This document shows, piece by piece, positions 9,027 through 26,263 of a stretch of 64,000 nucleotides of DNA (the first letter of the stretch is position 1; each line of letters starts with the position of its first letter). Source of the DNA: Nonomuraea rhodomycinica. Its GTDB lineage: Bacteria > Actinomycetota > Actinomycetes > Streptosporangiales > Streptosporangiaceae. The stretch covers positions 2,303,222 to 2,367,221 of the forward strand of contig NZ_JABWGO010000001.1 in assembly GCF_013363995.1 (NCBI RefSeq), written 5' to 3'. The notes under the pieces are model-generated. The model did no database searches. It worked only from the letters and a program-made list of their open reading frames with translations, and had not been told where the DNA came from. Made by a program: the position numbers and the translations under genes.

Positions 9027-10565
9027 CTACGACGGCAGGTGGACGCCGTCGACCGTGCGGGGGACGCCCAGCGGGTTGTCCTCGCGCAGCTCCGGGGGAA
9101 GCAGGGCGTCCGGGGTGTTCTGGAAGCACACCGGCCGCAGCCAGCGCTCGATCGCGGTGCTGCCCACGGAGGTGGAGCCGCTGGTGGAGGCCGGGTAGGG
9201 GCCGCCGTGCTGCATGGCGGGGGCGACGGTCACGCCGGTGGGCCAGCCGTCCACGACGACGCGTCCGGCCAGCCCGCTCAACCTGGCCACCAGGCGCGCC
9301 GCGTCCCCGTCCCCGCCCTCGTCGGCGGCGAGGTGCGCGGTCGCCGTGAGGTTGCCGGGCAGCGCGTCCAGCACCGCGTCACGCTCCTCGGCCGAGCCGT
9401 AGCGGGCCAGGACGGTGACCGGCCCGAAGCACTCCTCCAGCAGCTCCTGGTGCTCCCCGCCGCCGGCGAGCCGCGCCGCCGCCACGGTGAGCATGCCGGG
9501 CCGCACCGCGAGCGGGGCCTCTCCGTCGGCGTCCGCCTCGCCGGCCGCCAGGACCTCCTGTACGCCGGGCAGCGCGGCCCGCTCGCGGACCCCGGCCAGG
9601 AACGCCGCCCGCATGCGCGGGTCGAGCAGCGGCCCCGAGGGCACCGCCGCCGACACGGCGGCCTCGACGACGGCGTCGCCCGCCGGACCCTCGGGGAGGA
9701 GCACCAGGCCGGGCTTGACGCAGAACTGGCCGAGCCCCTGGGTGTAGGAGGCGGCCAGGCCCGCCCCGATCTCCGCGGCCCGCGTCTCGGCCGCGCGCTC
9801 GGTCACCACCACCGGGTTGAGGCTGCCCAGCTCGCCGTGGAACGGGATCGGCCGGGGCCGCGAGCAGGCGATGTCGTACAGGGCCCGGCCGCCGCGCACC
9901 GACCCGGTGAAGCCGACCGCCGCGGTCAGCGGGTGGCGTACCAGCTCGGGACCCGCGTCGAAGCCGTGGACCAGGCCCACCACGTCCTCCGGCAGCCCGG
10001 CCTTGACCGCCGCCGCGCGCAGGATCCGCGCGCACAGGACGCTGGTGGCCGGGTGGTCCGGGTGCGCCTTGACCACGACGGGGCAGCCCGCGGCCAGCGC
10101 GCTCGCGGTGTCGCCGCCGGGCACGCTGAAGGCCAGCGGGAAGTTGCTCGCGGAGAAGACGGCGACCACGCCCAGGGGCACCTTGTAGCGCCGCAGGTCG
10201 GGCCGGGGGGCGGGCCTGGCGTCCGGGTCGGCGTGGTCGATGATCACGTCGAGGTGGGCGCCGGACTCGGCCACGTCCGCGAAGGCGCGCAGCTGGTAGC
10301 AGGTGCGCGCGAGCTCGCCGGTCAGGCGCGGCCGGCCGAGCGCGGACTCCGCGTCGGCGGTCGCGACGATCTCCTCGGCGGCGTCCTCCAGGAGCGCGGC
10401 GGCGGCGCGGAGCAGGTCGGCGCGCGCGGCGCGGTCCGCGAGGGCCTGCGTCGCGGCGGCCGCCGCGCGCACCGCGCGGTCCACGTCCTGGGGCGTCGAC
10501 TCCGTCGCGACGCGCTCGCGGGGCTCCCCGGTACGCGGGTCCACGCTCAGCACGGCGTTGGCCAT
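9027..10565 (-). CDS. Alpha-ketoglutarate-semialdehyde (2,5-dioxovalerate) dehydrogenase
   Basis: A 512-residue aldehyde dehydrogenase of the KGSADH subfamily. Visible features are ASNFPLAFSVPGGDTA, catalytic Glu245 in FHGELGSLNP and nucleophile Cys282 in GQFCVKPG, in the family's usual order. It oxidises 2-oxoglutarate semialdehyde to 2-oxoglutarate, the last step of hydroxyproline breakdown. The start MANAV has AAAGAGGA upstream. It is the last gene of the minus-strand operon that begins at 16309, and its neighbours supply every earlier step, which makes the substrate assignment strong. Arabinose or glucarate degradation could feed the same semialdehyde. Confidence 0.92.
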   Translation of the reverse strand: MANAVLSVDPRTGEPRERVATESTPQDVDRAVRAAAAATQALADRAARADLLRAAAALLEDAAEEIVATADAESALGRPRLTGELARTCYQLRAFADVAESGAHLDVIIDHADPDARPAPRPDLRRYKVPLGVVAVFSASNFPLAFSVPGGDTASALAAGCPVVVKAHPDHPATSVLCARILRAAAVKAGLPEDVVGLVHGFDAGPELVRHPLTAAVGFTGSVRGGRALYDIACSRPRPIPFHGELGSLNPVVVTERAAETRAAEIGAGLAASYTQGLGQFCVKPGLVLLPEGPAGDAVVEAAVSAAVPSGPLLDPRMRAAFLAGVRERAALPGVQEVLAAGEADADGEAPLAVRPGMLTVAAARLAGGGEHQELLEECFGPVTVLARYGSAEERDAVLDALPGNLTATAHLAADEGGDGDAARLVARLSGLAGRVVVDGWPTGVTVAPAMQHGGPYPASTSGSTSVGSTAIERWLRPVCFQNTPDALLPPELREDNPLGVPRTVDGVHLPS

Positions 10566-10588
10566 CTCGTCCTCTTTCGTCGGTCGTG

Positions 10589-12175
10589 TCACTGGTCGTG
10601 GTGGGGGTCGTCTGGTGACGTGCGGGAGCGGTCGAGCGCGGCCAGCTCGCCCAGGGTCACCGGGGCCGCCAGGCTGCGGGTGGACAGCGGGCGCAGGTCC
10701 TCGGCGGTGGTCTCGCGGCGGTTCAGGCAGGCCGCGATGCCCGCGGTGGCGAAGCCGCACACCCGTCCCTGGCACCAGCCCATGCCCGGCCTGGCCAGCA
10801 TCTTCAGGGTGCGCGGGTCGTGGGCGCAGAGGTCGGTGTGCGCCCGGCGCAGGTCGCCGTAGGAGACCTCCTCGCACCGGCAGACGAGCGTGCGCTCCTC
10901 CAGCCATTCCGTCCAGGCGCTCGGCACCGGGTACGTCCGGTGCATGGCCGCCGCGAACCGGCGCCCGCGGCCGATCGCCGCCCGCAGCCGGCCCATCAGG
11001 CCCGGGACGGCCGGCCGGCCGAGCGAGCGGGCGAGGGCCAGGGCGCTGAGGCGGCCCTCCTGCGTGGCCAGGACGGCGCCGCCCACCCCGGTCGCCTCCC
11101 CGGCGACGTACACGCCTTCGACGCTGCTGCGCTGGAAGCCGTCCACGGCCACGACGAGGGAGCCGTCGACGTCCTTCCTGGTGTCGGCGCCGAGCATGAG
11201 CGCGAGTTCGAGCGACGGGGTGAAGCCCCAGCCCAGGGCGACGAGGTCGGCCGCGATCTCCTTGACCGGTCCGGCCGGGCGGCCGTCCCGGTCGACGCGG
11301 CTGATCCGCACCGCCTCGACCCGGTCCTGGCCGAGGATCCGGGTGACCACGGTCCTGGTGCGGTACGGGATGCGGTGGCGGGCCATCAGCGCCGCGTACT
11401 GCGCCGCCTCGACGGCCTTGCCCGGGACGGAGGCGGCCCCCACGGGGTCGCGCAGCCAGCCGAGCGTGCCGTTGGCCTCGGCGACGGCCTCGACGGACGC
11501 CCCGGCCCGCGCGAGCCCGGTGGCGACCGGCAGCAGGAACGGCCCGGTCCCGGCGACCACGGCGCGCCTGCCCGCGAGCACGCGATGGCCCTTGAGCAGG
11601 GCCTGCACTCCCCCGGCGGTCATCACGCCGGGCAGGTCCCAGCCGGGCACGGGCAGTTGCCGGTCGTACCCGCCGGTGCAGAGGATCAGCGCCCGGGCCG
11701 TGACCTGCCCGGCCGCGTCCGGCGCGGAGGCGCCCGAGGGTGAGGAGGCCGCGAAGGTCTTCGCGGCTTCGCCCGCGCCGGAGGCCGAGGTGCTCTCCGG
11801 GGTCCCGACCGCACCGGAGGCCGAGATGCTCTCCGGGGTCCCGACCGCGCCGGATGGCGTCGTGCGGAGGGTGAACGTGCCGGCCTCGTCCCGTGTGACG
11901 AGGTAGACCTGGCGGCCGGGCAGGTAGCGGATGCGGCCGGCGGCACGCGCCGTGCGCAGGCGCTCGCGGAGCCCGGTGAACACGGGCCAGCCGTGGTGGC
12001 CCGCCCGGTCGTCCGGCCGGGCGTGCCGCTCGTCGTAGTGCCGCCAGTACTGGCCGCCGGGCTGCGCGGCGCCGTCCACCAGCGCCACGTCGAGCCCGGC
12101 CTCGGCCGCCTCGACGGCGGCGGCCAGACCGGCCGGACCGGCGCCGACCACGGCGACGTCATGCGTCCTCGTCAC
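10589..12175 (-). CDS. D-hydroxyproline dehydrogenase, FAD/NAD-type subunit with BFD-like [2Fe-2S] domain
   Basis: About 528 residues. The N-terminal dinucleotide fold GAGPAGLAAAVEAAEAG is followed by an NAD(P)/FAD oxidoreductase body, and the C-terminal region carries a cysteine cluster CRCEE...WCQGRVCG typical of BFD-like [2Fe-2S] domains. This subunit type pairs with a small ferredoxin and a DAO-type FAD subunit in heteromeric D-hydroxyproline and related amino-acid dehydrogenases. GTG at 12175 is chosen because AAGGAGG lies 5-6 nt upstream. The protein contains a low-complexity insertion with a 12-residue repeat (DNA repeat at 11775). The start overlaps the ferredoxin gene by 17 nt. Confidence 0.88.
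   Translation of the reverse strand: MTRTHDVAVVGAGPAGLAAAVEAAEAGLDVALVDGAAQPGGQYWRHYDERHARPDDRAGHHGWPVFTGLRERLRTARAAGRIRYLPGRQVYLVTRDEAGTFTLRTTPSGAVGTPESISASGAVGTPESTSASGAGEAAKTFAASSPSGASAPDAAGQVTARALILCTGGYDRQLPVPGWDLPGVMTAGGVQALLKGHRVLAGRRAVVAGTGPFLLPVATGLARAGASVEAVAEANGTLGWLRDPVGAASVPGKAVEAAQYAALMARHRIPYRTRTVVTRILGQDRVEAVRISRVDRDGRPAGPVKEIAADLVALGWGFTPSLELALMLGADTRKDVDGSLVVAVDGFQRSSVEGVYVAGEATGVGGAVLATQEGRLSALALARSLGRPAVPGLMGRLRAAIGRGRRFAAAMHRTYPVPSAWTEWLEERTLVCRCEEVSYGDLRRAHTDLCAHDPRTLKMLARPGMGWCQGRVCGFATAGIAACLNRRETTAEDLRPLSTRSLAAPVTLGELAALDRSRTSPDDPHHDQ
11775..11846. repeat. 36-bp in-frame tandem repeat in the dehydrogenase gene
   Basis: Two copies of a 36-bp unit, about 94% alike, encode a repeated 12-residue segment (SASGAVGTPEST / SASGAVGTPESI in translation order). 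The segment sits in a surface-type loop between the two halves of the flavoprotein. It looks like a recent slippage duplication that kept the frame. Confidence 0.85.
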
Positions 12176-12521
12176 GGCCACCTCCTTGAGAAGCGTCACG
12201 GGAGCCGCCGCCCCGCGACTCGTCGCCCTGCGGGGAGCCGACGGAGCGGTCCTGCGGGGAGCCGAGAGAGCGGTCCTGCGCGGAGTCGCCGAGCCGCATG
12301 CCGTCGGCGGCGGGGACCAGGCAGGCGCGCCGGTCCGGCACGCCGTCGATCGTGATCAGGCAGTCGAAGCAGACGCCGATGCCGCAGAACAGGCCGCGGG
12401 GCCGGCCCGCCTTGCGCGTGCTGCGCCAGTCGAGGATCCCCGCCGCGACCAGGGCGGCGCCGACGCTCTGGCCGGGCTCGGCGGGGACGGCGGCCCCTCG
12501 GAAGGTCATCCGATAGGTCAC
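12159..12521 (-). CDS. Small [2Fe-2S] ferredoxin-like subunit of D-hydroxyproline dehydrogenase
   Basis: About 120 residues. The core has the plant-type [2Fe-2S] ligand pattern CGIGVCFDC plus a later Cys (RACLV). Such small proteins form the electron-transfer subunit between two flavin subunits in heteromeric amino-acid dehydrogenases, here presumably D-hydroxyproline dehydrogenase. The last 30 or so residues are a Ser/Gly/Asp-rich tail containing an 8-residue repeat. GTG at 12521 follows GAGGAGG by 7 nt and overlaps the upstream stop codon as GTGA. The 3' end overlaps the next subunit gene by 17 nt. Confidence 0.88.
   Translation of the reverse strand: MTYRMTFRGAAVPAEPGQSVGAALVAAGILDWRSTRKAGRPRGLFCGIGVCFDCLITIDGVPDRRACLVPAADGMRLGDSAQDRSLGSPQDRSVGSPQGDESRGGGSRDASQGGGRDEDA
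12227..12274. repeat. 24-bp in-frame tandem repeat in ferredoxin tail
   Basis: Two full 24-bp units (12227-12250, 12251-12274) and a partial third encode DRSVGSPQ/DRSLGSPQ. The unit keeps the reading frame and lengthens only the C-terminal tail. Confidence 0.8.
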
Positions 12522-13729
12522 TGGGGCACCTCCTCGGTGTCCGGAGCGGCGTCCGGGAAGCGGTCGGGGGCGAACGGCTTGAGGTCGAGGTCGGGGGCGC
12601 GTCCCGTGAGGGCCTGCGCGACCAGCTTGCCGGTGCCGGCGGACAGCCCGATGCCGGCGCCCTCGTGGCCGCAGGCGTGCCACAGGCCGGGCGCGCGCGG
12701 GTCGGGGCCGATGACGGGCAGATGGTCCGGGCAGTACGGCCGGAAGCCGAGGTAGGTGCGCATGGCGCGGACCTCGCGCAGCATCGGGAACAGCGCGATC
12801 GCCTTGGCGGCGAGGGCGCTGATCGCCTCGACGGACACCGTGCGGTCGAAGCCGACGCGCTCCCGGGAGGCGCCGATGAGGATCGTGCCGCTGTCGGTGC
12901 CCTCGACCACGGGCGAGGTCTGCAGGCCGGCGTCGGAGCTGGCCACGTCGCCCACGTATTCGGCGGCGTACACCTTGTGCCGGATCGTGCGTGGCGGCAT
13001 GGGCTGGGTGACGAGGACGAACCCGCGCCGGGGCAGCACGGGGACGCGCACGCCGGCCAGCCCGGCCACGGCGCCGGCCCAGGTTCCGGCGGCGTTGAGC
13101 ACCGCCCCGGCGGGGATGTCGCCGCCGGTGGTGCGCACGCCCGTCACCCGGTCGCCGTCGCGCAGGAACCCCGTCACCTCGGTACGGGTGCGCACCTCCG
13201 CCCCCAGCCCGCGGGCCAGGCGGAGCAGGTGCGCGACCACCAGCATGGGCTGGACCTGGGCGTCCTGCGGGTAGAAGGCCGCCCCGGCGAGCCGCGGCGA
13301 CAGGTGCGGCTCGTAGTCGCGCAGCTCATCCCGGCCGACGTCGCGCACCTCGACGCCGTGCCGGCGCTGGTGGTCGCCGAGCTCGCGCAGCGCCGCCACG
13401 CTCGGCTCCGAGGCCGCGACGACCAGGCCGCCCTTGGCCTCGAACTCCCACAGCGGGGCGTGCTCGGCGAGGTCCTCGCGCCACACCCGCTGCGAGTACA
13501 GGGCCAGGTCGAGCTCGGGGCCGGCCTCCTTGTCGGAGACCAGCAGGTTGCCCTCGCCGGCGCTGGAGGTGCCCCCGGCGATGGCGCCGCGCTCGACGAC
13601 GACCACCCGCAGCCCGGCGAGGCAGGCGAAGTACGCGCTCGCGGCCCCCACCACGCCGGCGCCGACGACGACGAGGTCGGCGCCTTCGCGGCGCCGGCCC
13701 GCCGACCGCCCGAACCACTGCGGCGTCAT
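12518..13729 (-). CDS. D-hydroxyproline dehydrogenase, DAO-type FAD subunit
   Basis: About 403 residues of the glycine/D-amino-acid oxidase (DAO) family. It has an N-terminal FAD fold VVGAGVVGAASAYFACLAG, VVVERG at the ribose-binding strand, and a C-terminal FAD contact GHEGAGIGLSAGTGK. This would be the subunit that oxidises cis-4-hydroxy-D-proline to pyrroline-4-hydroxy-2-carboxylate, using the ferredoxin and the second flavoprotein as electron partners. ATG at 13729 has GAGGGGG 4-5 nt upstream and overlaps the regulator stop as ATGA. DAO-family substrate cannot be read from the sequence; the operon gives it. Confidence 0.88.
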   Translation of the reverse strand: MTPQWFGRSAGRRREGADLVVVGAGVVGAASAYFACLAGLRVVVVERGAIAGGTSSAGEGNLLVSDKEAGPELDLALYSQRVWREDLAEHAPLWEFEAKGGLVVAASEPSVAALRELGDHQRRHGVEVRDVGRDELRDYEPHLSPRLAGAAFYPQDAQVQPMLVVAHLLRLARGLGAEVRTRTEVTGFLRDGDRVTGVRTTGGDIPAGAVLNAAGTWAGAVAGLAGVRVPVLPRRGFVLVTQPMPPRTIRHKVYAAEYVGDVASSDAGLQTSPVVEGTDSGTILIGASRERVGFDRTVSVEAISALAAKAIALFPMLREVRAMRTYLGFRPYCPDHLPVIGPDPRAPGLWHACGHEGAGIGLSAGTGKLVAQALTGRAPDLDLKPFAPDRFPDAAPDTEEVPQ

Positions 13730-14409
13730 GTCGCCCCCTCGGCGCCGCCCGCCCACAGCCCGCGGACGTGCCCGATGTGGCGGTGCATCAGCAGCTCGGC
13801 CCCGGCCGGGTCGCGGGCCTGGATGAAGTCGAGCAGCTCGTGGTGCTCGGCGGCCGAGCGGCCCAGCCGGCCGCTCTGCAGCAGCGGGGTCAGGCCGAGC
13901 AGCCGGGTCCGCGAGCGCAGGCCGGACACGACGTCCACCAGCACCGGGTTGCGGCTGTAGCCGAGCAGGGTCAGGTGGAAGACGTGGTCCGCCTCGACGT
14001 AGCCCACCAGGTCGCCGCGCTCGGCGGCGTCCACGATGTCCTGGGCGAGCCTGCGCAGCCCGGGGAAGTCGTCCTCCGGGACGGCGCAGACGCTCTCCCG
14101 CACCGCCCGCGGCTCGATCAGCAGCCGCACGGCGGCCAGGTTGTCGAGGTCCTCCTCCGACACCTCGGTGACCCGGAAGCCCTTGTTCGGCTGCGGGACG
14201 ACCAGCCCCTCCTTCACCAGGTCGAGCATGGCCTCCCGCACGGGGGTGGCCGAGACGCCGAACTGGGTGCCGAGCGCCGGCGCCGAGTAGACGACGCCGG
14301 GCTCCAGCTCGCCGGAGATGATCGCGGCGCGCAGCGCCGCCCGGATCCGGTCCCGGAGGTTCTCTCGGGGACCGATGCCGGGCAGCTCCGGGACCGGGGA
14401 CAGGCTCAC
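13726..14409 (-). CDS. GntR family (FCD) regulator of the hydroxyproline operon
   Basis: A 227-residue regulator. The N-terminal winged helix-turn-helix (ENLRDRIRAALRAAIISGEL and GVSATPVREAMLDLVKEGLV) is followed by an FCD ligand domain with EADHVFHLTLL and the metal-type His residues (HHELLDFI, MHRHI). It lies inside the catabolic operon, overlapping both neighbours by 4 nt (GTGA, ATGA). The likely operator is the palindrome at 16352-16364 in the operon promoter, with related half-sites at 26201-26233. The ligand is probably hydroxyproline or a pathway intermediate (inference). Confidence 0.9.
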   Translation of the reverse strand: MSLSPVPELPGIGPRENLRDRIRAALRAAIISGELEPGVVYSAPALGTQFGVSATPVREAMLDLVKEGLVVPQPNKGFRVTEVSEEDLDNLAAVRLLIEPRAVRESVCAVPEDDFPGLRRLAQDIVDAAERGDLVGYVEADHVFHLTLLGYSRNPVLVDVVSGLRSRTRLLGLTPLLQSGRLGRSAAEHHELLDFIQARDPAGAELLMHRHIGHVRGLWAGGAEGAT

Positions 14410-15407
14410 AGCAGGAACCCCGCGGGGAACGGGTCGGTGGGGTCGAGGTGGAACTGCGAGGTGCCGGTGACCCAGGCGCGGCCGGTGATCGACGGCAGCA
14501 CCGCGGGCAGCCCGCCGACCGTGGTCTCGCCGAGCAGCCGGCCGGTGAAGCGCGTGCCGATGAACGACTCGTTGACGAAGTCCTCGCCGATCGCCAGCTC
14601 GCCCCGCGCGTGGAGCTGCGCCATCCGCGCGCTCGTGCCGGTGCCGCACGGCGAGCGGTCGAACCAGCCCGGGTGGATCGCCATGGCGTGCCGGGACAGC
14701 TTGGCCGTGGAGCCGGGCGCCTTGAGGTAGACGTGGTGGCAGCCGTTGATGTCGGCCCGCTCGGGGTGGACCGGGCGGTCGTGCTCGTTGACGGCGTCCA
14801 TGACGGCGAGCCCGGCGGCCAGCAGGTCGCCGGCGCGCGAGCGGTCGAACGGCAGGCCCAGCTCCGCCAGCTCGACGACGGCGTAGAAGTTGCCGCCGAA
14901 GGCCAGGTCGTAGCCCACCTCGCCGAACCCGGGCACCTCGACCTTCCGGTCCAGCGCGTACGAGAACGACGGCACGTTCTCGATGGTGACCGAGGTCGCC
15001 GCGCCGTCCTCGACCGCCACGGACGCGACCACGAGCCCGGCCGGGGTGTCCAGCCTGATCGTGGTGACCGGCTCGACGACGGGCACCATGCCGGTCTCGA
15101 CGAGGACGGTGGCGACGCCGATGGTGCCGTGCCCGCACATCGGCAGCAGCCCGGAGACCTCGATGAACAGCACGCCGTAGTCGGCGTCGGGGCGGGTGGG
15201 CGGCTGCAGGATGGCGCCGCTCATCGCGCCGTGGCCGCGCGGCTCGTACATGAGCAGCGTGCGCACGTCGTCGCTGTTGTCCATGAACCACTGCCGGCGC
15301 TCGGCCATGGTGGCGCCGGGGATCACGCCCACGCCGCCGACGATCACACGGGTGGGCATGCCCTCCGTGTGGGAGTCGACGGCGTGGAAGGTGCGACGCG
15401 ATCTCAC
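14406..15407 (-). CDS. 4-hydroxyproline 2-epimerase (proline racemase family)
   Basis: A 333-residue member of the proline racemase family. Both catalytic thiols are present: Cys91 in MCGHGTIG and Cys254 in SPCGTGTSA, so it is an epimerase/racemase and not the Cys/Thr dehydratase branch. Other signatures are DSHTEGMPTRV at the N-terminus and GNFYAVVE. It converts trans-4-hydroxy-L-proline to cis-4-hydroxy-D-proline, the first pathway step. GTG at 15407 overlaps the previous stop (GTGA), so translation is coupled. Its neighbours decide hydroxyproline over proline as substrate. Confidence 0.93.
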   Translation of the reverse strand: MRSRRTFHAVDSHTEGMPTRVIVGGVGVIPGATMAERRQWFMDNSDDVRTLLMYEPRGHGAMSGAILQPPTRPDADYGVLFIEVSGLLPMCGHGTIGVATVLVETGMVPVVEPVTTIRLDTPAGLVVASVAVEDGAATSVTIENVPSFSYALDRKVEVPGFGEVGYDLAFGGNFYAVVELAELGLPFDRSRAGDLLAAGLAVMDAVNEHDRPVHPERADINGCHHVYLKAPGSTAKLSRHAMAIHPGWFDRSPCGTGTSARMAQLHARGELAIGEDFVNESFIGTRFTGRLLGETTVGGLPAVLPSITGRAWVTGTSQFHLDPTDPFPAGFLL

Positions 15408-16309
15408 TTGTAGCCCTTGCGGATGACCGCCTCGGTGTCGGCGGTGATGCGGGCGGTCAGCTCGGGCGACAGCGGCAGGCGCGGCGGCCGGCAGGCGCCG
15501 CCCTTGAGCCCGGCGAGGTCCATCGACAGCTTGATCGACTGGACGAACTCGGTCTTGGAGTCCCAGCGCAGCAGGGGGTGCAGGTCGCGGTAGATCCGCA
15601 CCGCCTCGGCCAGGTCGGCGGGGTCGCCGGAGGTGGCCAGCCGGTAGAGGCGGACCGTCGCCTGCGGGATCATGTTCGGGTAGCCGGCGATCCAGCCGAC
15701 CGCCCCGGCGATGCCCAGTTCGAGCAGCACGTCGTCGGCGCCGATGAGCAGGTCCAGGTCGGGCGCGAGCTCGGCGATCTGGTACGCCCGGCGCACGTCG
15801 CCGGTGAACTCCTTGACCGCGACGATCAGGCCCTCGTGGAACAGCTCGGCGAGCAGGTCGGGGGTCAGGTCGACCTTGGTGTCGATGGGGTTGTTGTAGG
15901 CGACGACGGGCAGCCCGGCCTTGGCGACCTCGCGGTAGTGCTGGACCACGGCCTCGCGCTCGGCCCGGTAGGCGTTCGGCGGGAGCAGGAGCACGGAGGT
16001 GGCCCCGGCCTCGGCCGCCTGCTCGGCCCAGCGGCGGGCCTCCAGCGCGCCGTAGGCGGCGACGCCCGGCATGACGCCGAACCCGGCGGGGGCGGCCTGG
16101 ACGGCGGTCTCGACGACGCGGGCCCGCTCCTCGGCGGTGAGCGTCTGGTACTCGCCGAGCGACCCGTTGGGCGTCACTCCGTCGCAGCCGCCGGCGGCGA
16201 GGAAGCGCACGTGGTCGGCGAACGCGTCGTAGTCGACGGACAGGTCGTCGGTGAAGGGAAGGGCCGACGCGACGTGGATGCCGCGCCAGGGCGTGGCGGC
16301 GGTGGTCAT
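15404..16309 (-). CDS. Pyrroline-4-hydroxy-2-carboxylate deaminase (DapA/NanA family)
   Basis: A 301-residue class I aldolase of the dihydrodipicolinate synthase family. Schiff-base Lys166 is in VAVKEFTG and the catalytic Tyr138 in VVAYNNP. True DapA has GTTGE near residue 50; here it is PNGSLGEY, as in family members acting on other substrates. In hydroxyproline operons this enzyme removes ammonia from pyrroline-4-hydroxy-2-carboxylate to give 2-oxoglutarate semialdehyde. ATG at 16309 has AAAGGAGAG about 8 nt upstream. It is the first gene after the operator-bearing promoter at 16340-16368. Confidence 0.9.
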   Translation of the reverse strand: MTTAATPWRGIHVASALPFTDDLSVDYDAFADHVRFLAAGGCDGVTPNGSLGEYQTLTAEERARVVETAVQAAPAGFGVMPGVAAYGALEARRWAEQAAEAGATSVLLLPPNAYRAEREAVVQHYREVAKAGLPVVAYNNPIDTKVDLTPDLLAELFHEGLIVAVKEFTGDVRRAYQIAELAPDLDLLIGADDVLLELGIAGAVGWIAGYPNMIPQATVRLYRLATSGDPADLAEAVRIYRDLHPLLRWDSKTEFVQSIKLSMDLAGLKGGACRPPRLPLSPELTARITADTEAVIRKGYK

Positions 16310-16339
16310 GCTGAAGTCTCTCCTTTGTCAGGGTATCCG

Positions 16340-16368
16340 AGATTACTAGTGCAATGTCACATTGTCTA
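16340..16368 (-). promoter_or_regulatory. Promoter with GntR-type operator in the spacer
   Basis: On the minus strand, TAGACA (16363-16368) and TAATCT (16340-16345) are separated by 17 nt, a good -35/-10 pair. The spacer contains a perfect 13-bp palindrome CAATGTcACATTG (16352-16364), partly flanked by TAG/CTA. The half-site AGTGCAATG (plus strand, 16348-16356) recurs twice upstream of the GH127 gene. A repressor bound here would cover the promoter; the in-operon GntR protein is the obvious candidate. Confidence 0.7.
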
Positions 16369-18979: not shown

Positions 18980-19794
18980 CGGGCGGCCCTCCTTCTGCGG
19001 TCCCATTCGGGGTTGATCCGGGGGATCGCGGCCAGCAGCGTCTTGGTGTAGGGGTCGCCCGGGGCCTTGAAGACCTCCTCGCACGGCCCCTGCTCCACGA
19101 TCTTGCCCTTGTTCATGACGGCGACCCGCTGGGCGAGCTGCCGGACCACGGCCAGGTCGTGGGCGATGAAGATGTAGCTGAAGCCGCTCTCCCGCTGGAG
19201 CCTGCGCAGCAGCTCGATGATCTGCGCCTGGACGGAGACGTCGAGCGCCGAGACGGCCTCGTCGCAGATCACCAGCTTGGGATCGACGGCCAGGGCGCGG
19301 GCGATGCCGATCCGCTGGGCCTGCCCGCCGGAGAACTGCGCCGGGTAGCGGTGCGCGTGGTCGGGGTTGAGGCCGACCCGCTCCATCAGCTCGCGGGTGT
19401 ACGCCCGCCGGCCGCCCTTCGGCGCGATGCCCTGGTAGTCCAGGGGCGCCATGAGGATGCGCTCGACGGTGTGCCGCGGGTTGAGCGAGGAGAACGGGTC
19501 CTGGAAGACGACCTGCACCTTGGCGCGGTAGCGGGCGAGCCGGGCCCCGGCGGCGTGGGTGATGTCCTCGCCGTCGAACTCCAGGGTGCCGGAGGTGGGC
19601 TCCATGAGCTTGGCGACGATCCGCGCGCTGGTGGACTTGCCGCACCCGGACTCGCCCACGACGGCCAGCGTCTCGCCGAGCCGCACGTCGAAGCTGACGC
19701 CGTCCACCGCGGTGAACTCGTTCTTGCGCCGGTACGGCCCGCGCGTGGTGAACCGCTTGGTCAGGTCGCGGACGCGGAGCAGGACGTCACTCAC
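18976..19794 (-). CDS. Oligopeptide ABC transporter ATP-binding protein (OppF-like)
   Basis: A 272-residue ABC ATPase with Walker [10 protein letters not shown], signature [15 protein letters not shown], Walker [12 protein letters not shown] and switch His IFIAHDL. The C-terminal extension [11 protein letters not shown] is the peptide-importer (OppD/F) hallmark. It is the second ATPase of a complete Opp set encoded 18976-24226. GTG at 19794 overlaps the OppD-like stop (GTGA). Confidence 0.93.
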
Positions 19795-20591
19795 AGGACC
19801 ACCTCGTCGTCGATGCGCGGGATGCTCTCCAGCAGCATCCGCGTGTAGTCGTGGCGCGGGGCGGCGAAGACCTGCTCGGCGTCGCCGTACTCGACCTGCT
19901 CGCCGCGGCACATGACGAGCACGCGGGTGGCGATCGAGCTGATCACGGCCAGGTCGTGGGTGACGAACACCATGCCGGTGCCGGTCTCCCGCTGCAGGCC
20001 GGCCAGCAGGCCGAGGATCTGCGCCTGCACGGTCACGTCCAGGGCGGTGGTCGGCTCGTCGGCGATGAGCAGCGCCGGCGAGCACACCAGCGCCATCGCG
20101 ATCATGACGCGCTGCCGCTGCCCGCCGGAGAACTGGTGGGGGTAGTAGCCGGCCCGCCGCTCGGGCTCCGGGATGCCCACCTGCGTCAGGGCCTCGACCA
20201 CGACCCGGCGGGCCTCCTTGCGCGAGCACCTGCGGTGGGCCCGGTACATCTCCTCGATCTGCAGGCCGACCGTGTAGTACGGGTTGAGCGACGACAGCGG
20301 GTCCTGGAAGATCATCGAAGCCTGCTCGCCCCGGACGCGGCGCATCTCCCGGTCCGGGCGGCCGAGCAGCTCGACGCCGTCCAGCCGGATGCTGCCCCGC
20401 GTCGTGGCGCCGGGCGGCAGCAGGCCCATGACGGCCAGGCTGGTCATCGACTTGCCGGAGCCGGACTCGCCGACGATGCCGACGGTCTCGTTGCGTCCCA
20501 CCGTGAACGACACGTCCTTGACCACGTCCACGGGACCGCGGGTGGTCGGGAAGGTGACCGTGAGGTCCTCCACGACGAGCAGCTCGCTCAT
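19791..20591 (-). CDS. Oligopeptide ABC transporter ATP-binding protein (OppD-like)
   Basis: A 266-residue ABC ATPase. Walker A is GESGSGKSM, signature [15 protein letters not shown], Walker [12 protein letters not shown], switch VFVTHDL, and the peptide-importer tail [14 protein letters not shown] is present. It works as a heterodimer with the OppF-like protein to drive peptide import. It lacks the long C-terminal region of some OppD proteins. ATG at 20591 overlaps the permease stop (ATGA). Confidence 0.93.
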
Positions 20592-21577
20592 GACACCCTC
20601 ACTCTCGGGTCGAGGCCGGTGTAGAGGAGGTCCACGACGACGTTGCCGGCCATCACGAAGAACGCGGCCAGCAGGGTCACCGCCATGATGACCGGCTGGT
20701 CGTTCTTGGCGATCGAGTCGGCCGCCATCTTGCCGATGCCGTTGAGCCCGAAGACCGTCTCGGTGATCAGCGCGCCGCCGAGCAGCGCGGCGAAGTCCAT
20801 GCCGAAGATGGTGACGATCGGGGTCAGCGCGGGCCGCAGCGCGTGGCGGCGCATCGTGAGCGCCGGGCTCAGGCCCTTGGACCGCGCGGTGCGCATGAAG
20901 TTCTGCGCCAGCGTGTCGATCACGTTCGCCCTGGTCAGGCGGGCGTACAGGCAGGCGTAGCCGGTGGCGAGCACCAGCCACGGCATCAGGTACGACTGGA
21001 ACCACAGCAGCGGGTCCTCGGAGAACGGCACGGCCGAGGGGAACGGCAGGATCTGCAGCTTGACCACGAGCACGTACTGCAGGGTGAGCGCGAGCACGTA
21101 GTTGGGGATGCTGGCGCCGCCGAGGGCCAGGCCCATGGCGGTCCGGTCCCACCAGGAGCCCTCCTTGACCGCGCTGAGCAGCCCGGCGGCGATGCCGACG
21201 ATCAGCCACAGGACCGCCGCGCCCACCGCGACCGTGGCGCTGACCGGCAACCGGTCCACGATCATCTGGGTCACCGACTGGCTGCTCTGGAAGGAGTAGC
21301 CGAGGCAGGGCGCCGGGCAGTGGACGAGGTTGGGGCCGCTGCCGTAGTCGCGGCCGGCGACGAGCCCGCTCAGGTAGTCCCACAACTGCGTGAGGAACGG
21401 CTTGTCGAGCCCCAGGGAGGCGCGGATCTGGGCGACGCGGTCAGGGGTGCAGGTCTTGCCGCAGATCATCAGCGCCGGGTCCGGCGACAGCTTGAAGAAG
21501 ATCAGGTACGTGAACACGCACACGAGCAGCAGCAGGAAGACCAGCCCTGCCAGCCGGCCGGCGACGTAGCGGGCCAT
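20588..21577 (-). CDS. Oligopeptide ABC transporter permease (OppB-like)
   Basis: A 329-residue inner-membrane permease with six hydrophobic segments. The N-terminal helix and LGLDKPFLTQLWDYL segment are OppB-typical, and the EAA-loop region reads ARSKGLSPALTMRRHALRPA. It has an unusually Cys-containing external loop between the first helices (CGKTCTP, CPAPC), which might be disulfide-bonded. Start ATG at 21577 shares one base with the upstream stop (TGATG). Confidence 0.92.
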   Translation of the reverse strand: MARYVAGRLAGLVFLLLLVCVFTYLIFFKLSPDPALMICGKTCTPDRVAQIRASLGLDKPFLTQLWDYLSGLVAGRDYGSGPNLVHCPAPCLGYSFQSSQSVTQMIVDRLPVSATVAVGAAVLWLIVGIAAGLLSAVKEGSWWDRTAMGLALGGASIPNYVLALTLQYVLVVKLQILPFPSAVPFSEDPLLWFQSYLMPWLVLATGYACLYARLTRANVIDTLAQNFMRTARSKGLSPALTMRRHALRPALTPIVTIFGMDFAALLGGALITETVFGLNGIGKMAADSIAKNDQPVIMAVTLLAAFFVMAGNVVVDLLYTGLDPRVRVS

Positions 21578-22533
21578 CAGGACGCCTCCCCCGCGTCCGA
21601 CGCCGCCCGGATCCGGTCCCCGAGCACGGTCAGCGACAGCACCGTGAGGAACAGGAACAGTCCGGGCACCGCGAAGTACATGGGGTCGGTCGCGTACCAG
21701 CTCACCGCGCTGGAGATCATCTGCCCCCACGAGGGGGTCGGCGGGGTGACGCCCACCCCGAGGAACGACAGGCCGGCCTCGGTGCCGATGTAGCCGGGCA
21801 CGGCCAGCGTCGTCATGACGATCAGCGAGTTGCGCAGGTTGGGCAGGATCTCCTTGAACACGATGGCGCCGGTGGAGGCGCCGGAGGCGCGGGCGGCCTC
21901 GACGAACTCGCGGTTGACCAGCGTGAGGGTCTGCCCGCGCACCACGCGGGCGAGGTACGGCCACCCGAACACGGTGATCACCGTGACCAGCAGGACCGAG
22001 CGGTCACCCGTCGGCAGGGACGACAGGATCGCGATCATGAAGATCAGCGCGGGGAAGGCCATGAGGAAGTCCATGATCCGGGAGATGACCTGGTCCACCC
22101 AGCCCTGGTAGAACCCGGCGAGCAGGCCGAGCACCACGCCGAGCAGGGTGGTCAGCACGGTCGCCGAGATCGCGATCAGGAACGACACGCGGGCGCCGTA
22201 GGCGATGCGGGCCAGGATGTCGCGCCCGTTCTGCGGCTCCACGCCGAGCAGGTGGTCGGCGCTGACGCCGCCGAACGAGCCGCGCGGCAGGCCGCCGAGA
22301 TTGGTGTCGACGGCGGCGGGGTCGAAGTCGTTCGGCCCGTGCCCGGTGACGGCGGAGATCAGCGGCGCGCAGATCGCCATGAGCACGACCAGGCCGAGGA
22401 ACGCCGTGCTGAGGACGGCTCCCCGGTCGCGCAGCAGGGCGCGCGCGATCCGGCGCCCCTCCGTGGCGGGCGCGTCTCCCGCGCCCGCCGGAGGGTCCGC
22501 CATCGCTTCGTGCGAGGGTGCGGCGGTGGTCAT
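21577..22533 (-). CDS. Oligopeptide ABC transporter permease (OppC-like)
   Basis: A 318-residue permease with an N-terminal cytoplasmic extension, an OppC-type first helix, a long loop (PNDFDPAAVDTNLGG) before HLLGVEPQNGRDILAR, and EAA motif EAARASGASTGAIVFKEILPN. It pairs with the OppB-like protein to form the channel. The first 20 or so residues are Ala/Pro-rich; an internal ATG 10 codons in is an alternative start. Confidence 0.92.
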   Translation of the reverse strand: MTTAAPSHEAMADPPAGAGDAPATEGRRIARALLRDRGAVLSTAFLGLVVLMAICAPLISAVTGHGPNDFDPAAVDTNLGGLPRGSFGGVSADHLLGVEPQNGRDILARIAYGARVSFLIAISATVLTTLLGVVLGLLAGFYQGWVDQVISRIMDFLMAFPALIFMIAILSSLPTGDRSVLLVTVITVFGWPYLARVVRGQTLTLVNREFVEAARASGASTGAIVFKEILPNLRNSLIVMTTLAVPGYIGTEAGLSFLGVGVTPPTPSWGQMISSAVSWYATDPMYFAVPGLFLFLTVLSLTVLGDRIRAASDAGEAS

Positions 22534-22540
22534 GGGTGTC

Positions 22541-24226
22541 CTACTTGCTCGGGTCCTTGAGCCCGACCGAGACCAGGTCGATCCCGGCGGAGTACGAGTC
22601 GTGGAGGTAGGCGCCCGCGATGTTCTCGCCGATGACGGTCACGTTCTTCTCGTAGAGCAGGGGCACGATGGGGGCCTTCTCCATGATCTGCTTGTCCAGC
22701 TCGCCGTAGGCGGCGTTGGCGGCGTTGACGTCGGTCATCGCGGCGATCTCGTCGATGCGCCTGTTGATGGCCTCGTCGTCGATCTGGGCGAGGTTGCTGT
22801 TGCCCTTCTCGAAGATGTTGCGGCCGTCGAACAGCGGAGGCAGGAAGGTGGCGCCGGACGACCAGTCCGGGCACCAGCCGGTGAGGGCCGCGTCGTGCTG
22901 CCGGGCGGGCGTGCCGATCACCTCGTAGAAGGTGGACGTGTCCATGTTGTTGATCTTGACGTTGATGCCCAGCGGCTTCAGCGACTCCTGGATGGCGACG
23001 GCCATGCCCTGCTGGCGGGGCACCGGGCGCACGTCGAGGGTCAGGTCGAAGCCCTTGTCCTGGCCCGCCTCGGCGAGCAGCTGCTTGGCCTTGGCCGGGT
23101 CCGTCGGGTAGGGGTCGTAGTCGAGGCGGCCGACGATGGTCGGCGGCTGGATCGCGCCGCCCTTGGTGGCCAGCGTCGTGCCGCCGTCACCGGCGACCAC
23201 GTTGTCCTTGTTGATCGCGTAGTTGATCGCCTGGCGGACCTTCACGTCGTCGAGCGGCTTCTTGGTGGTGTTCAGGCTCATGTACGTGGTGCAGCCCATG
23301 TACCCGGACAGCGTGCGCGCCTTGTAGCGCGGGTCCTGGATGCGGGCCACGGTGGCCGGCTGGATCGCGCCCGCGATCGCGTCGGCGTCGGCGCCCTGCC
23401 CGGCGAGCATGCGCTCGTCGATGGTCGCGCCGTCGAGCCCGAAGGTGATCTCGAAGGAGTCCGGCCTGGCGGCGCGGACGGTGTCGGTCGCGGCCTTCCA
23501 GTGCGGGTTGCGCACCAGCTTCAGCTTCGCGCCGCGCTGGTAGCTCTCCACCTTGTACGGGCCGGACGCGATCGGCTTGGTGTCGAACGCGCCGGCCGCG
23601 CCCGTGCCCTTGGGGAACGGCACGAAGTTGGGCTGCACCAGCGCGCTGGCGAAGTCGGCGAACGGCTTCTTCAGGTGGAAGACGATCGTCTTGGGGTCGG
23701 GGGTCTCGATCGTGTCGAGCTCGCCCGAGACGTACGGGCCCTTGTAGTCCTTGGGCGCGTCGATGAGCAGCTTGGCGTAGGGCGAGCCGATGCCGGCCTC
23801 GGGGTCCCACGCGCGCTCGACGCCGAACTTCATCGCCTCGCTGGTGATCGGCGTGCCGTCCTCGAAGAAGATGTCGTCCTTGAGGGTGAACGTCCAGGTC
23901 TTGTTGCCGTCGGAGGGGGTGCCGGTGCTGGTGGCGAGGTCGGGGACCACCTTCGTGCCCTCCGTGCCGGGACCCGCGCCGAACGTGGTCAGGCCCCGGT
24001 AGATGAGCCGGTAGAAGTTGTTGACGCCGCCGTCCCAGCCCCGGACCGGGTCCAGGTGGGAGTAGTCCGCGGTCTGCAGGACGTGGACCGTGCCGCCGGA
24101 GGCGGCGGCCTTGGCCTCGGAGCCCGAGGCCGCGGTGCCCTTCCCACCGCTTCCGCCGCCGCCGCACGCCGCGACCGCCAACGTGGTGAGCACCGAGACG
24201 CCGGCGAGGGCGGCCGATCTCCTCAT
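22541..24226 (-). CDS. Peptide-binding lipoprotein of the ABC importer (OppA-like)
   Basis: A 561-residue solute-binding protein of family 5. A lipoprotein signal peptide ends in the lipobox LAVAAC, followed by a Gly/Ser/Lys linker. Family 5 signatures include YRLIYRGLTTFG, WTFTLKDDIFFEDGTPIT and VRQAINYAINKD. It captures peptides outside the cell for the permeases encoded next. Given the proline peptidases, hydroxyproline enzymes and GH127 arabinosidase in the same run, hydroxyproline-rich (glyco)peptides are the likely ligand; that is inference. ATG at 24226 has GAAGG 5 nt upstream. Confidence 0.92.
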   Translation of the reverse strand: MRRSAALAGVSVLTTLAVAACGGGGSGGKGTAASGSEAKAAASGGTVHVLQTADYSHLDPVRGWDGGVNNFYRLIYRGLTTFGAGPGTEGTKVVPDLATSTGTPSDGNKTWTFTLKDDIFFEDGTPITSEAMKFGVERAWDPEAGIGSPYAKLLIDAPKDYKGPYVSGELDTIETPDPKTIVFHLKKPFADFASALVQPNFVPFPKGTGAAGAFDTKPIASGPYKVESYQRGAKLKLVRNPHWKAATDTVRAARPDSFEITFGLDGATIDERMLAGQGADADAIAGAIQPATVARIQDPRYKARTLSGYMGCTTYMSLNTTKKPLDDVKVRQAINYAINKDNVVAGDGGTTLATKGGAIQPPTIVGRLDYDPYPTDPAKAKQLLAEAGQDKGFDLTLDVRPVPRQQGMAVAIQESLKPLGINVKINNMDTSTFYEVIGTPARQHDAALTGWCPDWSSGATFLPPLFDGRNIFEKGNSNLAQIDDEAINRRIDEIAAMTDVNAANAAYGELDKQIMEKAPIVPLLYEKNVTVIGENIAGAYLHDSYSAGIDLVSVGLKDPSK

Positions 24227-24278
24227 TTCGCCTTCTTTCATCAGTTGTTGCAGTTGCAGCGGCGGCGGTGAGCTGCCG

Positions 24279-26177
24279 TCACCGCGACCTGACCCACACG
24301 CGCATGGCCTCGGGCCTGCGGTTGCCCCACAGGAAGTAGGGGACGAGGGCGGCGGAGACGTCCGCCGCCGGGGTGGACGGGGGCTGCGCGCCGAACTCCG
24401 GGTACAGCTCCACCGGCGGGGGCGCGGCGACGCCGGCCGGCACCCGGAGGACGACGGCTCCCGGGAGTTCCTCGGACGCGCCGATGTTTGCGCTAACAAC
24501 AGCGGCCGGCGACAGCACGAGGTCGTCCACGGGGGCCGGCACGTCCTGCTGCTCGACGCAGTAGACCAATGGCCCGCGGGCCACGGCGACCGCGCCGCGG
24601 GCCGCGTCCACGTACGGGTGCGGCACGTGGGCGCGCACCGGCATCGGCAGGCGCAGGCGCAGCACGTCGCCCTCGGCCCAGCGGCGCTCCACGGTCAGCC
24701 AGCCGTCCCGCGCCGCGACGGGCTCGCCGTCCAGCGTCGCGCCGCGCGCCCAGGCGGGGATCCGCAGCTTCAGGGCGTACGGACGCTCGGGGGCGCGTTC
24801 GATCGTGACGCGGACGTCGCCGTCCCAGGGGTAGGCCGTCTCGACGGCCAGCGCGACGGCGTCCGTCTCGACGCGGGACTCGGCGTACTGGGCGAGGTGG
24901 AGCACGCCGTCGCGTTCGGCCGCCGCGTAGTCGCCGAGCTGCGCCATCCACCGCACGATGTTCGGCGGGCAGCACGGGCAGCCGAACCACGACCGGCGCA
25001 GCTCCTCGCCGCCGGTCTCGGCGCCGCTGCGCTGCTGGTGGTCGGGGCGGCGCTGGAGCGGGTTGTCGTAGAAGAACGCCTTGCCGTCGGCGGACAGGCC
25101 CACCGCGTAGGCGTTGTAGAGCACCCGCTCGAAGACGTCGAGGTAGCGCGCGCTCCCCGTGGCCAGGAACATCCGCCAGCCCCACTGCATCACGGCGATG
25201 GCGGCGCAGGTCTCGCTGTAGGAGCGCTCGGACGGCAGCTCGTAGCGGTCGCCGATGGCCTCGTCGGAGTGCCGGCTGCCGAGCCCGCCGGTGATGTAGA
25301 GCTTGGTGGCGACCATGTCGTCCCAGAGGCGCTCCAGCGCGTCGAGGAGGGTCCGGTCGCCGGTCTCGACGGCCACGTCGGCCGCACCGGCGGCGAGGTA
25401 GGCCATGCGCACCGCGTGCCCGGTGACCGACGGCAGCTCGCGCAGCGGCACATGGTCCTGGAAGTACTCCGGCGGGAAGATGCTGTGCTTGAGCCTGCCC
25501 CGCCCGCGCCGCTCGACGAACAGCGCGGCCTGCGTCAGGTAGTCGCGCTCGCCGGTCTCCCGGTAGAGCTCCACGAGGGCCATCTCCACCTCGGGGTGAC
25601 CGCAGACGGCCTCCTCGCGGCCCGCGCCGAAGCGCCGCACGACGAGGTCGGCGAACCTGACCGCCACGGCGAGCAGCCGGTCGTCGCCCATCCGGCGCGA
25701 GGCGGCGACGGCGGCCTGGATGAGGTGGCCCAGGTTGTACATCTCGTGTCCCCAGGCCAGGTCCTCCCACGGCTTCCTGTCCGCGGCCGGGTCCTGGAAG
25801 AACGAGTTGAGGTAGCCGTCCTCGGCCTGTACCCGCTCCAGCAGGCCCACGACCTCGTCGAAGAACTCCCGCTCGGCCTCCCCCGCCTCGCCCCGGCCGA
25901 GCTCGTACGCCAGGCCCTCCAGGGTCTTGTACAGGTCGGTGTCGAGGAACGGGTAGCGGCCCCGGTAGGGCGGCGCGTCGTCCTCGGTCAGCCGGCGCAG
26001 GTTGGCGACGTTGCCCGCGGCGCGGAGCTGCTCGACGGTGTGCGGGATGGTCGCGCGACGGTTGCGCTCCTGCCACTCACGAAGCAGGCCACCGGTGATG
26101 CGGACGCCCGCGACCGGGGAGACGGCCCCGGCCTCGGTCCGTACGGCTCCGGCCGGCGGCTTGGACTCCAGGGACAT
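24279..26177 (-). CDS. GH127 beta-L-arabinofuranosidase
   Basis: A 632-residue glycoside hydrolase family 127 protein. The key residues line up with Bifidobacterium longum HypBA1: acid/base Glu306 (SRHSDEAIGD), zinc ligands Glu322 and Cys324 (YSETC), and the cluster CPCCPPN with nucleophile Cys402 and ligand Cys403. The spacing Glu306-Glu322 (16) equals Glu322-Glu338 of HypBA1. HypBA1 releases L-arabinose from arabinofuranosyl-hydroxyproline of plant extensin. No signal peptide is visible, so it is cytoplasmic and would act after uptake. ATG at 26177 has AGGAGGAG upstream. It is the first gene of the transport/peptidase/hydroxyproline run. Confidence 0.92.
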   Translation of the reverse strand: MSLESKPPAGAVRTEAGAVSPVAGVRITGGLLREWQERNRRATIPHTVEQLRAAGNVANLRRLTEDDAPPYRGRYPFLDTDLYKTLEGLAYELGRGEAGEAEREFFDEVVGLLERVQAEDGYLNSFFQDPAADRKPWEDLAWGHEMYNLGHLIQAAVAASRRMGDDRLLAVAVRFADLVVRRFGAGREEAVCGHPEVEMALVELYRETGERDYLTQAALFVERRGRGRLKHSIFPPEYFQDHVPLRELPSVTGHAVRMAYLAAGAADVAVETGDRTLLDALERLWDDMVATKLYITGGLGSRHSDEAIGDRYELPSERSYSETCAAIAVMQWGWRMFLATGSARYLDVFERVLYNAYAVGLSADGKAFFYDNPLQRRPDHQQRSGAETGGEELRRSWFGCPCCPPNIVRWMAQLGDYAAAERDGVLHLAQYAESRVETDAVALAVETAYPWDGDVRVTIERAPERPYALKLRIPAWARGATLDGEPVAARDGWLTVERRWAEGDVLRLRLPMPVRAHVPHPYVDAARGAVAVARGPLVYCVEQQDVPAPVDDLVLSPAAVVSANIGASEELPGAVVLRVPAGVAAPPPVELYPEFGAQPPSTPAADVSAALVPYFLWGNRRPEAMRVWVRSR

Positions 26178-26200
26178 GCGGGCGGCTCCTCCTGATGCGT

Positions 26201-26263
26201 GCCATTGCACTTGTGCTGTGTGGCATTGCACTGCACCCTAGGACGGTGGCGGATGACCGCCAA
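26201..26263 (-). promoter_or_regulatory. GH127 operon promoter with two repressor half-sites
   Basis: On the minus strand TTGGCG (26258-26263) and TAGGGT (26235-26240) are 17 nt apart. Immediately downstream are two directly repeated boxes, AGTGCAATGCCAC and AGTGCAATGGCAC, 21 bp apart (plus-strand cores 26222-26232 and 26201-26211). The same AGTGCAATG half-site occurs in the promoter palindrome at 16348-16364, so both transcription units are probably controlled by the same GntR protein. The remaining stretch to 26557 is AT-richer near 26275-26320 and then GC-rich; I see no gene in it. Confidence 0.6.

Follow-up and report, generated by a model that had tools for sequence, protein, structure and literature searches.

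Hydroxyproline-rich glycoproteins constitute a major class of plant cell-wall proteins. The bacterial route described for them, that of bifidobacteria, involves the import of the sugar only (PMC7263609, PMC10850190; these and the other papers are represented here by the parts drawn on), and in the glycosidase family GH127 a cysteine acts as nucleophile, zinc being held by three cysteines and one glutamate (PMC10850190). As regards the amino acid, deletion of the epimerase gene of Streptomyces coelicolor abolishes growth on hydroxyproline (Hyp), and the GntR regulator HypR of this species has been footprinted and its sites tested by electrophoretic mobility shift assay (EMSA) (PMC6608401). The present work deals with 15 genes of Nonomuraea rhodomycinica (genome of 9.6 Mb in 90 contigs), located at 9027-26177 of a stretch of 64,000 nucleotides of NZ_JABWGO010000001.1, hereafter the window, where a GH127 gene, a peptide importer, peptidases and a Hyp catabolic module lie together. 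This locus is rather likely to be a two-unit regulon for arabinosylated Hyp peptides, the substrate class which, on the predicted functions, would best unite all the genes.

Genes were called by codon-position composition and assigned to families by Pfam, with the curated cut-offs of NCBIfam as a stricter test. The 15 contiguous genes fill the block, all on the minus strand, no gap between them exceeding 56 bases and several of them overlapping by 1-41 bases, and the nearest called genes on both sides lie on the opposite strand. Gene calls and Pfam thus confirm the 15 minus-strand genes and the families given in the original prediction (Table 1). The claim of a single locus uniting all these functions also stands as far as the locus is concerned, but that of a single operon is open to doubt in view of the 56-base gap before the deaminase gene, which holds an operator-like site of its own; one locus with two co-regulated transcription units is probably present. 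The arrangement is not due to chance, since the same gene order recurs in other genera.

From the gene families, catalytic residues, conserved linkage and shared operators, a scheme can be proposed for the substrate, the order of the reactions, the repression and the inducer. In the first unit, from the GH127 gene to that of aminopeptidase P, the Opp-type importer would take up glycopeptides, the cytoplasmic GH127 would strip β-L-arabinofuranose from Hyp (or from a short arabinose chain on Hyp), and aminopeptidase P and the S33 aminopeptidase would then release Hyp. In the second unit, from the deaminase to the aldehyde dehydrogenase gene, the epimerase, the three-subunit D-hydroxyproline dehydrogenase, the deaminase and the semialdehyde dehydrogenase would convert Hyp to 2-oxoglutarate. 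The GntR regulator of this unit would repress both units via the shared operators, relief being brought about by Hyp or its product. If one repressor governs the whole way from glycopeptide to 2-oxoglutarate, this would account for the use of both carbon and nitrogen of these glycoproteins by soil actinobacteria. The extensin-type source originally named would be one possible source among several; nothing in the sequences separates extensin from other arabinosylated Hyp proteins or peptides.

The link between GH127, peptide importer, prolyl peptidases and Hyp catabolism is conserved across loci. The GH127 scan gave 79 loci, 55 of them with a GH127 at least 59% identical to that of the window (the clade) and 24 others at 35-48%; the nearest, from N. 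roseoviolacea subsp. carminata and N. montanisoli, are 94-95% identical. Among the clade loci, importer genes are nearly constant (binding protein in 54, OppC in 53, OppB in 53, OppD in 53, OppF in 52 and all five in 52), and peptidase genes are frequent (S33 in 46, M24 in 37, one or the other in 51). The counts of the distal genes are lower bounds, as no locus extends further than 10 kb from GH127 or beyond the end of its contig: deaminase 24, epimerase 13, GntR 24, DAO 8, Fer2 7, Pyr_redox 6 and aldehyde dehydrogenase (ALDH) 4, with any of the deaminase, epimerase, DAO or Pyr_redox genes in 26 and a Hyp enzyme or GntR gene in 39. Each accompanying family was found in 0/24 of the other GH127 loci at the thresholds used. 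The neighbourhood search suggested with the original prediction, for GH127 genes next to an epimerase gene in other genomes, is positive, with 13/55 clade loci versus 0/24 other GH127 loci.

These 13 clade loci unite importer, peptidase, deaminase and epimerase genes across five families (Streptosporangiaceae, Streptomycetaceae, Promicromonosporaceae, Intrasporangiaceae and Micrococcaceae), the epimerase gene being co-directional with GH127 in some (e.g. L005, L035, L048, L049 and L055) and divergent in others (L037, L039, L044, L045, L051 and L053). L005, from N. roseoviolacea subsp. carminata, shows the genes from GH127 as far as the epimerase. The set is therefore not confined to one genome, and similar sets recur in other actinobacterial loci. 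Further stretches from Specibacter and Arthrobacter sp. MYb227 show more of the gene set; in MYb227 the epimerase gene comes right after the deaminase gene, as judged from the genome search position and the further stretch. At genome level, an epimerase gene is present in all 33 clade genomes searched, which represent 33 of the 55 loci (best E-values all <1e-150). In a phylum-wide sample it was found, at E 1e-120, in 25/396 genomes, one of them that of the window. In the taxonomic order of the window, a clade GH127 (at least 75% identity) occurs in 14/200 genomes, all 14 with an epimerase gene somewhere. The presence of this gene in a genome is weak evidence, and it is physical linkage that carries the argument.

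The Hyp module has also been found in the same order beside a different Opp-type importer, in a neighbouring genus of the same family (L095:6365-11851; identities: deaminase 85%, epimerase 95%, GntR 79%, DAO 87%, Fer2 87%, Pyr_redox 73%); the 19-kb stretch concerned contains no clade GH127. This points to a joining, in the lineage of the window, of the catabolic module with a GH127-importer unit that had been separate, and, in view of the 95% identical epimerase, horizontal transfer is possible. As further observations, Streptomyces sp. MP131-18 has, by its GH127 locus, an epimerase-like stretch called only as a 126-residue open reading frame (ORF) (L046:21123-21503), together with an intact epimerase gene with the full Hyp module elsewhere (L098), and the GH127 gene of Specibacter has directly upstream of it a second racemase-family gene, a distant one (38%; L055:5054-6052).

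The promoters of both units carry a predicted operator of the Hyp repressor. The GntR protein of the window matches 12/14 functional residues of S. coelicolor HypR at a constant +3 offset, including three metal histidines among the positions for DNA contact and metal or effector binding; the two mismatches are Arg71 to Pro and Leu209 to Ile, and S. coelicolor HypR is not among the best 120 listed relatives of this protein. Upstream of GH127, the first operator starts four bases past the TAGGGT of a promoter-like TTGGCG-17-TAGGGT. A 13-base form, AGTGCAATGNCAC, occurs exactly three times in the whole genome, all in this locus (reversed control 0). Sites with up to two mismatches are not above chance in the whole window (11 seen versus 17.4 expected), so the operator evidence is one of position and quality.

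In order to extend the comparison to other loci, a weight matrix was built only from the seven EMSA-positive sites of S. coelicolor (PMC6608401) and used at a threshold of 12.5 bits. It was reached upstream of 51/55 clade GH127 genes versus 1/21 other GH127 genes (three of the 24 loci being dropped for a short upstream region), the background being 36/782 other ORFs and 26/550 Markov shuffles; the loci of relatives do not count as independent, and a gap shared by neighbours accounts for some of the background matches. The deaminase gene of seven clade loci has such a site as well. Moreover, a promoter-like -10 with an operator just downstream was found in 39/56 regions, the spacing being 3-5 bases in 37, and in 0/560 shuffles, a count which is partly circular because the operator pattern was hand-widened to forms seen in these loci. 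Ten matches to the 13-base form were found in six Kribbella and Nonomuraea-type genomes, eight of them at clade GH127 promoters. Kribbella catacumbae has GTGCAATGTCACA at the GH127 operon and at one further place, in front of a deaminase-ALDH-GntR gene set, and the general Hyp loci of two Nonomuraea-type genomes show a related but different form, TAATATGTCAC. From this distribution, the operator links the GH127 unit with Hyp genes within one locus or regulon, and not with every Hyp locus of the cell. One extra exact operator lies about 400 bases before a 915-residue ORF (L119:7671; G209 contig C28).

The GH127 protein (632 aa) matches the catalytic, middle and C-terminal domains of its family (PF07944 303, PF20736 66.5 and PF20737 74.4 bits). 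No signal peptide is seen by eye at its N-terminus and the binding protein has a lipobox, and therefore the glycosidase should act inside the cell. The nearest solved structures by sequence are 6ex6 (369 bits; by its PDB title, arabinofuranosidase BT3674), 4qjy (354), HypBA1 3wkw (305) and 5mqo (269; by its title, BT_1003), with 36-38% identity to the three arabinofuranosidase references. Twelve catalytic or subsite residues of HypBA1, checked by alignment, are all identical in the window protein and in 56/56 clade rows (55 loci plus the window): H142, Y145, H194, H270, R273 and E322 correspond to H144, Y147, H194, H254, R257 and E306, and E338, C340, E366, Y386, C417 and C418 to E322, C324, E350, Y370, C402 and C403. 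Among them are the zinc ligands and cysteine nucleophile (E338, C340, C417 and C418 in HypBA1), as well as E322. The substrate residues of GH127 type that differ in GH146 (H142, Y145, H194 and R273) are thus kept.

The designation as HypBA1-type holds for the family, while the protein belongs to a clade of its own: in a 49-row tree, which took in 28/55 clade loci (hand-thinned for diversity), the window and three solved reference enzymes, the clade was grouped at 100/100 support with no reference enzyme inside. This clade is actinobacterial and β-L-arabinofuranosidase activity is predicted for it. An AlphaFold model (mean predicted local distance difference test score, pLDDT, 66.8; shallow alignment of 22 rows; low confidence at the stretches holding active-site residues) served for the fold match only. 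The genome itself has four PF07944 matches, all with GH127-type residues.

As regards the importer and peptidases, the nearest solved match of the binding protein is 2wok, "clavulanic acid biosynthesis oligopeptide binding protein 2" (274 bits). The best solved match of the S33 protein is Arabidopsis AT3g61540 (8jgn, 352 bits), far ahead of proline iminopeptidases with 22-24 bits. AT3g61540 is taken here to be a prolyl aminopeptidase, a literature search (Arabidopsis DM3) having found no paper. Residues S155, D384, D385 and H413 are kept in 48/48 aligned rows, their Ser-Asp-His roles being presumed from the motif, and the protein scores under the NCBIfam prolyl aminopeptidase cut-off (30.7 versus 259.75 bits). 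The M24 protein matches aminopeptidase P structures with up to 185 bits, and its metal ligands D259, D271, H356, E387 and E411, in an alignment with 5wze and 4pv4, are found in 40/40 aligned rows; cleavage of Xaa-Pro and Xaa-Hyp is predicted.

In the Hyp module, the residues named in the original prediction are present and invariant: the catalytic pair C91/C254 of the epimerase in 18/18 aligned rows, and K166 of the deaminase, together with Y138, in 32/32. The deaminase and epimerase genes overlap by 4 bases. The epimerase lies under the proline racemase model cut-off (365 versus 556), and the Fer2_BFD match (PF04324) of the Pyr_redox_2 subunit, with 22.4 bits, is below its cut-off of 26. The nearest solved structures of the aldehyde dehydrogenase are 1eyy (384 bits) and 3v4c (348 bits), which we take to be linked to type III α-ketoglutaric semialdehyde dehydrogenase (KGSADH).

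Weimberg-type and Hyp pathways end in the same semialdehyde, and the DHDPS-ALDH pair was also considered as part of L-arabinose oxidation. Against this reading, an overlap joins the DHDPS gene to that of the epimerase, and the 15 genes include no arabinose dehydrogenase or arabinonate dehydratase family. It was therefore rejected, although the lone deaminase gene of nine other Nonomuraea-type operons and the deaminase-ALDH-GntR set of K. catacumbae are not fully accounted for. The genome contains a second Hyp locus (L088:15442-19500, contig C33) with a deaminase, an epimerase, a second racemase-family gene (36%), an ornithine-cyclodeaminase-family gene of the type typical of trans-3-Hyp use, and a GntR gene, with the variant operator TAATATGTCAC upstream.

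Table 1. Genes and regulatory elements of the locus (positions in the window), and GH146-like genes at other clade loci (positions preceded by the locus number)
Feature	Position	Strand	Family or other particulars
Promoter-like -35, TTGGCG (17-base spacer)	26258..26263	-	
Promoter-like -10, TAGGGT	26235..26240	-	
HypR-type operator 1, before GH127	26220..26230	-	TGCAATGCCAC, one mismatch
HypR-type operator 2, 21 bases from operator 1	26199..26209	-	TGCAATGGCAC, one mismatch
GH127 β-L-arabinofuranosidase-family enzyme	24279..26177	-	PF07944/PF20736/PF20737
Lipoprotein substrate-binding protein, oligopeptide type	22541..24226	-	SBP_bac_5; lipobox VAAC
Importer permease, OppC type	21577..22503	-	BPD_transp_1 + OppC_N
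Importer permease, OppB type	20588..21577	-	BPD_transp_1_N + BPD_transp_1
Importer ATPase, OppD type	19791..20591	-	ABC_tran + oligo_HPY
Importer ATPase, OppF type	18976..19794	-	ABC_tran + oligo_HPY
S33-type α/β hydrolase, probable prolyl (hydroxyprolyl) aminopeptidase	17687..19006	-	Abhydrolase_1
M24 aminopeptidase P (predicted)	16366..17694	-	AMP_N + Peptidase_M24
HypR-type operator 3, in the gap upstream of the deaminase gene	16350..16360	+	TGCAATGTCAC, perfect core
Probable Δ1-pyrroline-4-hydroxy-2-carboxylate deaminase	15404..16309	-	DHDPS (PF00701)
Probable 4-hydroxyproline 2-epimerase	14406..15407	-	Pro_racemase (PF05544), 435 bits
GntR/FCD regulator, HypR-like	13726..14409	-	GntR + FCD
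D-hydroxyproline dehydrogenase, FAD (flavin adenine dinucleotide) subunit	12518..13729	-	DAO (PF01266), 258 bits
D-hydroxyproline dehydrogenase, small 2Fe-2S subunit	12159..12509	-	Fer2_4 (PF13510)
D-hydroxyproline dehydrogenase, Pyr_redox_2 subunit (start approximate)	10589..12199	-	PF07992, weak PF04324
Probable α-ketoglutaric semialdehyde dehydrogenase	9027..10565	-	Aldedh (PF00171)
GH146-like gene, Streptomyces violens	L009:18537-20444		PF07944; 79 bases after S33 gene
GH146-like gene, Streptosporangium subroseum	L012:6367-9042		closest PDB matches: GH146 enzymes 5opj and 8k7y
GH146-like gene, Terrabacter	L051:1-2055		PF07944
GH146-like gene, Intrasporangiaceae isolate	L053:2-1669		PF07944

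Several results weigh against a regulon for arabinosylated Hyp peptides. No member of the GH127 clade was found among the solved structures in the PDB comparison, and to our knowledge none has been characterised. The twelve HypBA1 positions are also identical in 25 other GH127 rows, so that Hyp-linked arabinose is not singled out: being common to all the GH127 rows compared, these residues fit an arabinofuranosidase-type -1 site and are silent on the aglycone. As for the catabolic enzymes, the epimerase scores under the NCBIfam 4-hydroxyproline epimerase cut-off (NF010578; 359 versus 376 bits) and has Ile at residue 244 in 18/18 rows, where known HypE proteins have Tyr or Cys and proline racemase has Phe, and the aldehyde dehydrogenase is far under the cut-off of α-ketoglutaric semialdehyde dehydrogenase GucD (NF042993; 94 versus 770 bits).

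The linkage has its exceptions as well. Hyp enzyme and GntR genes are both absent from the fetched stretch of 16/55 clade loci, although three of these loci come from short contigs, and for L043 a deaminase gene appears further out. The epimerase gene is inside the locus in only 3/14 genomes of the window's order, the window's own included. Among the 15 other Nonomuraea-type loci, including [Actinomadura] parvosata, the deaminase gene alone follows the peptidases in nine (L013, L014, L015, L016, L018, L020, L028, L042 and L083), five have none and one is cut short. An epimerase gene is also present in 8/18 genomes that entered the scan only via other GH127 loci, that is, in 7/9 of the actinobacterial ones, where a clade copy could also be present. 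Finally, the exact operator form is missing at both Kribbella epimerase loci examined, and HypR gave no response to Hyp in vitro (PMC6608401).

The first alternative is that the locus feeds on unglycosylated Hyp peptides, such as collagen or gelatin fragments, the GH127 being a passenger or serving another purpose. The importer and peptidases need no glycan, and the HypR regulon of S. coelicolor includes a putative collagenase and has been read as pointing to collagen use (PMC6608401). However, GH127 heads the unit, with the binding-protein gene accompanying it in all clade loci except one that ends at a contig end, and its checked catalytic residues are intact throughout the clade. Moreover, secreted GH146-like arabinofuranosidase genes adjoin at least 4/55 clade loci (part of the neighbours having been scanned), where they sit beside the GH127 or Hyp genes of their own loci; the four proteins have twin-arginine-like N-termini, with A/Y/Q replacing H142/H194/R273, and two contain a Laminin_G_3 domain. 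We therefore regard this alternative as unlikely.

It is equally improbable that GH127 acts on some other β-L-arabinofuranoside (arabinobiose, arabinogalactan side chains or pectin) brought in by the importer, the regulator being shared since both nutrients come from plant walls. Its nearest characterised relatives include BT3674, tied to arabinogalactan, the genome carries an L-arabinose isomerase-family gene, and family-5 binding proteins are presumably able to carry sugars. In addition, the relative HypBA1 cleaves arabinobiose (PMC10850190). Against this, the closest solved match of the binding protein is of the oligopeptide-binding kind, and a peptidase gene of S33 or M24 type accompanies the importer in nearly all clade loci. 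That GH127 is an aceric acid hydrolase, as described for BT1003 (PMC10850190), or another non-arabinose enzyme of the family is very improbable: the aceric acid hydrolase model NF049879 is its sole NCBIfam match but scores 379.8 bits versus a cut-off of 950, 5mqo ranks below BT3674, 4qjy and HypBA1 by both sequence and fold, and the HypBA1 subsite residues are kept.

If the two-unit regulon for arabinosylated Hyp peptides is accepted, a GH127 clade with no solved member gains a testable substrate, HypR-type regulators gain a second target set, and candidate tools are provided for removing arabinose from Hyp peptides. A broader and quite speculative proposal is that of a conserved actinobacterial route in which intact Hyp-arabinosylated peptides would be imported and deglycosylated in the cytoplasm before proteolysis, by a peptide-linked GH127 subfamily whose substrates might include CLE or HypSys peptides. 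These are small arabinosylated plant signal peptides and, if the proposal were true, the food of the bacteria would include plant peptide hormones in addition to wall fragments.

Elsewhere in the window, ARAGORN reports a tRNA-Val (cac) of 101 bases at 36833-36933, overlapping predicted minus-strand genes, which may be false or unusual, and a 923-residue protein (44259-47030) has a branched-chain-amino-acid-type permease domain and an ATPase domain together.

With regard to known systems, the locus shares with the HypR regulon SCO6289-SCO6293 of S. coelicolor the DAO, Fer2_4, FAD/BFD oxidoreductase, DHDPS and Pro_racemase genes, as well as a GntR/FCD regulator with matching residues and the same operator core, the comparison being made by families, residues and operator core. 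It differs in that the KGSADH gene is not near the S. coelicolor operon, and in that the parts of the paper drawn on name no GH127, Opp importer or prolyl peptidase genes alongside it, the main text containing no word starting with "arabino" (PMC6608401). Proteobacterial and other Hyp loci follow the same epimerase - oxidase/dehydrogenase - deaminase - KGSADH route, and no glycosidase or glycopeptide import step is described in the portions used of these papers, "glycos" occurring 0 times in PMC4113996 (PMC4113996, PMC4364671).

The HypAA/HypBA2/HypBA1 cluster of Bifidobacterium longum also combines a cytoplasmic GH127 with an importer, for the β-arabino-oligosaccharides of hydroxyproline-rich glycoproteins, but there the sugar is released outside the cell, and a sugar-type transporter takes in arabinobiose (PMC7263609, PMC10850190). 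By contrast, the peptide-type importer, peptidases and Hyp catabolism of the window point to uptake of the whole glycopeptide, and a search limited to the 15 genes gave no extracellular glycosidase gene, neither GH121 or GH43 as in the bifidobacterial cluster nor any other. The GH146 enzymes Bll4HypBA1 and XeHypBA1 have been described as acting on Araf-β-Hyp, the bond proposed for the window enzyme, although they belong to a different family and the latter has GH127-type subsite residues (PMC10850190). No paper uniting these functions was found in the open-licence literature, as judged by titles and abstract beginnings. The locus joins two known systems, Hyp catabolism of the S. coelicolor type and a GH127 unit resembling the HypBA1 system.

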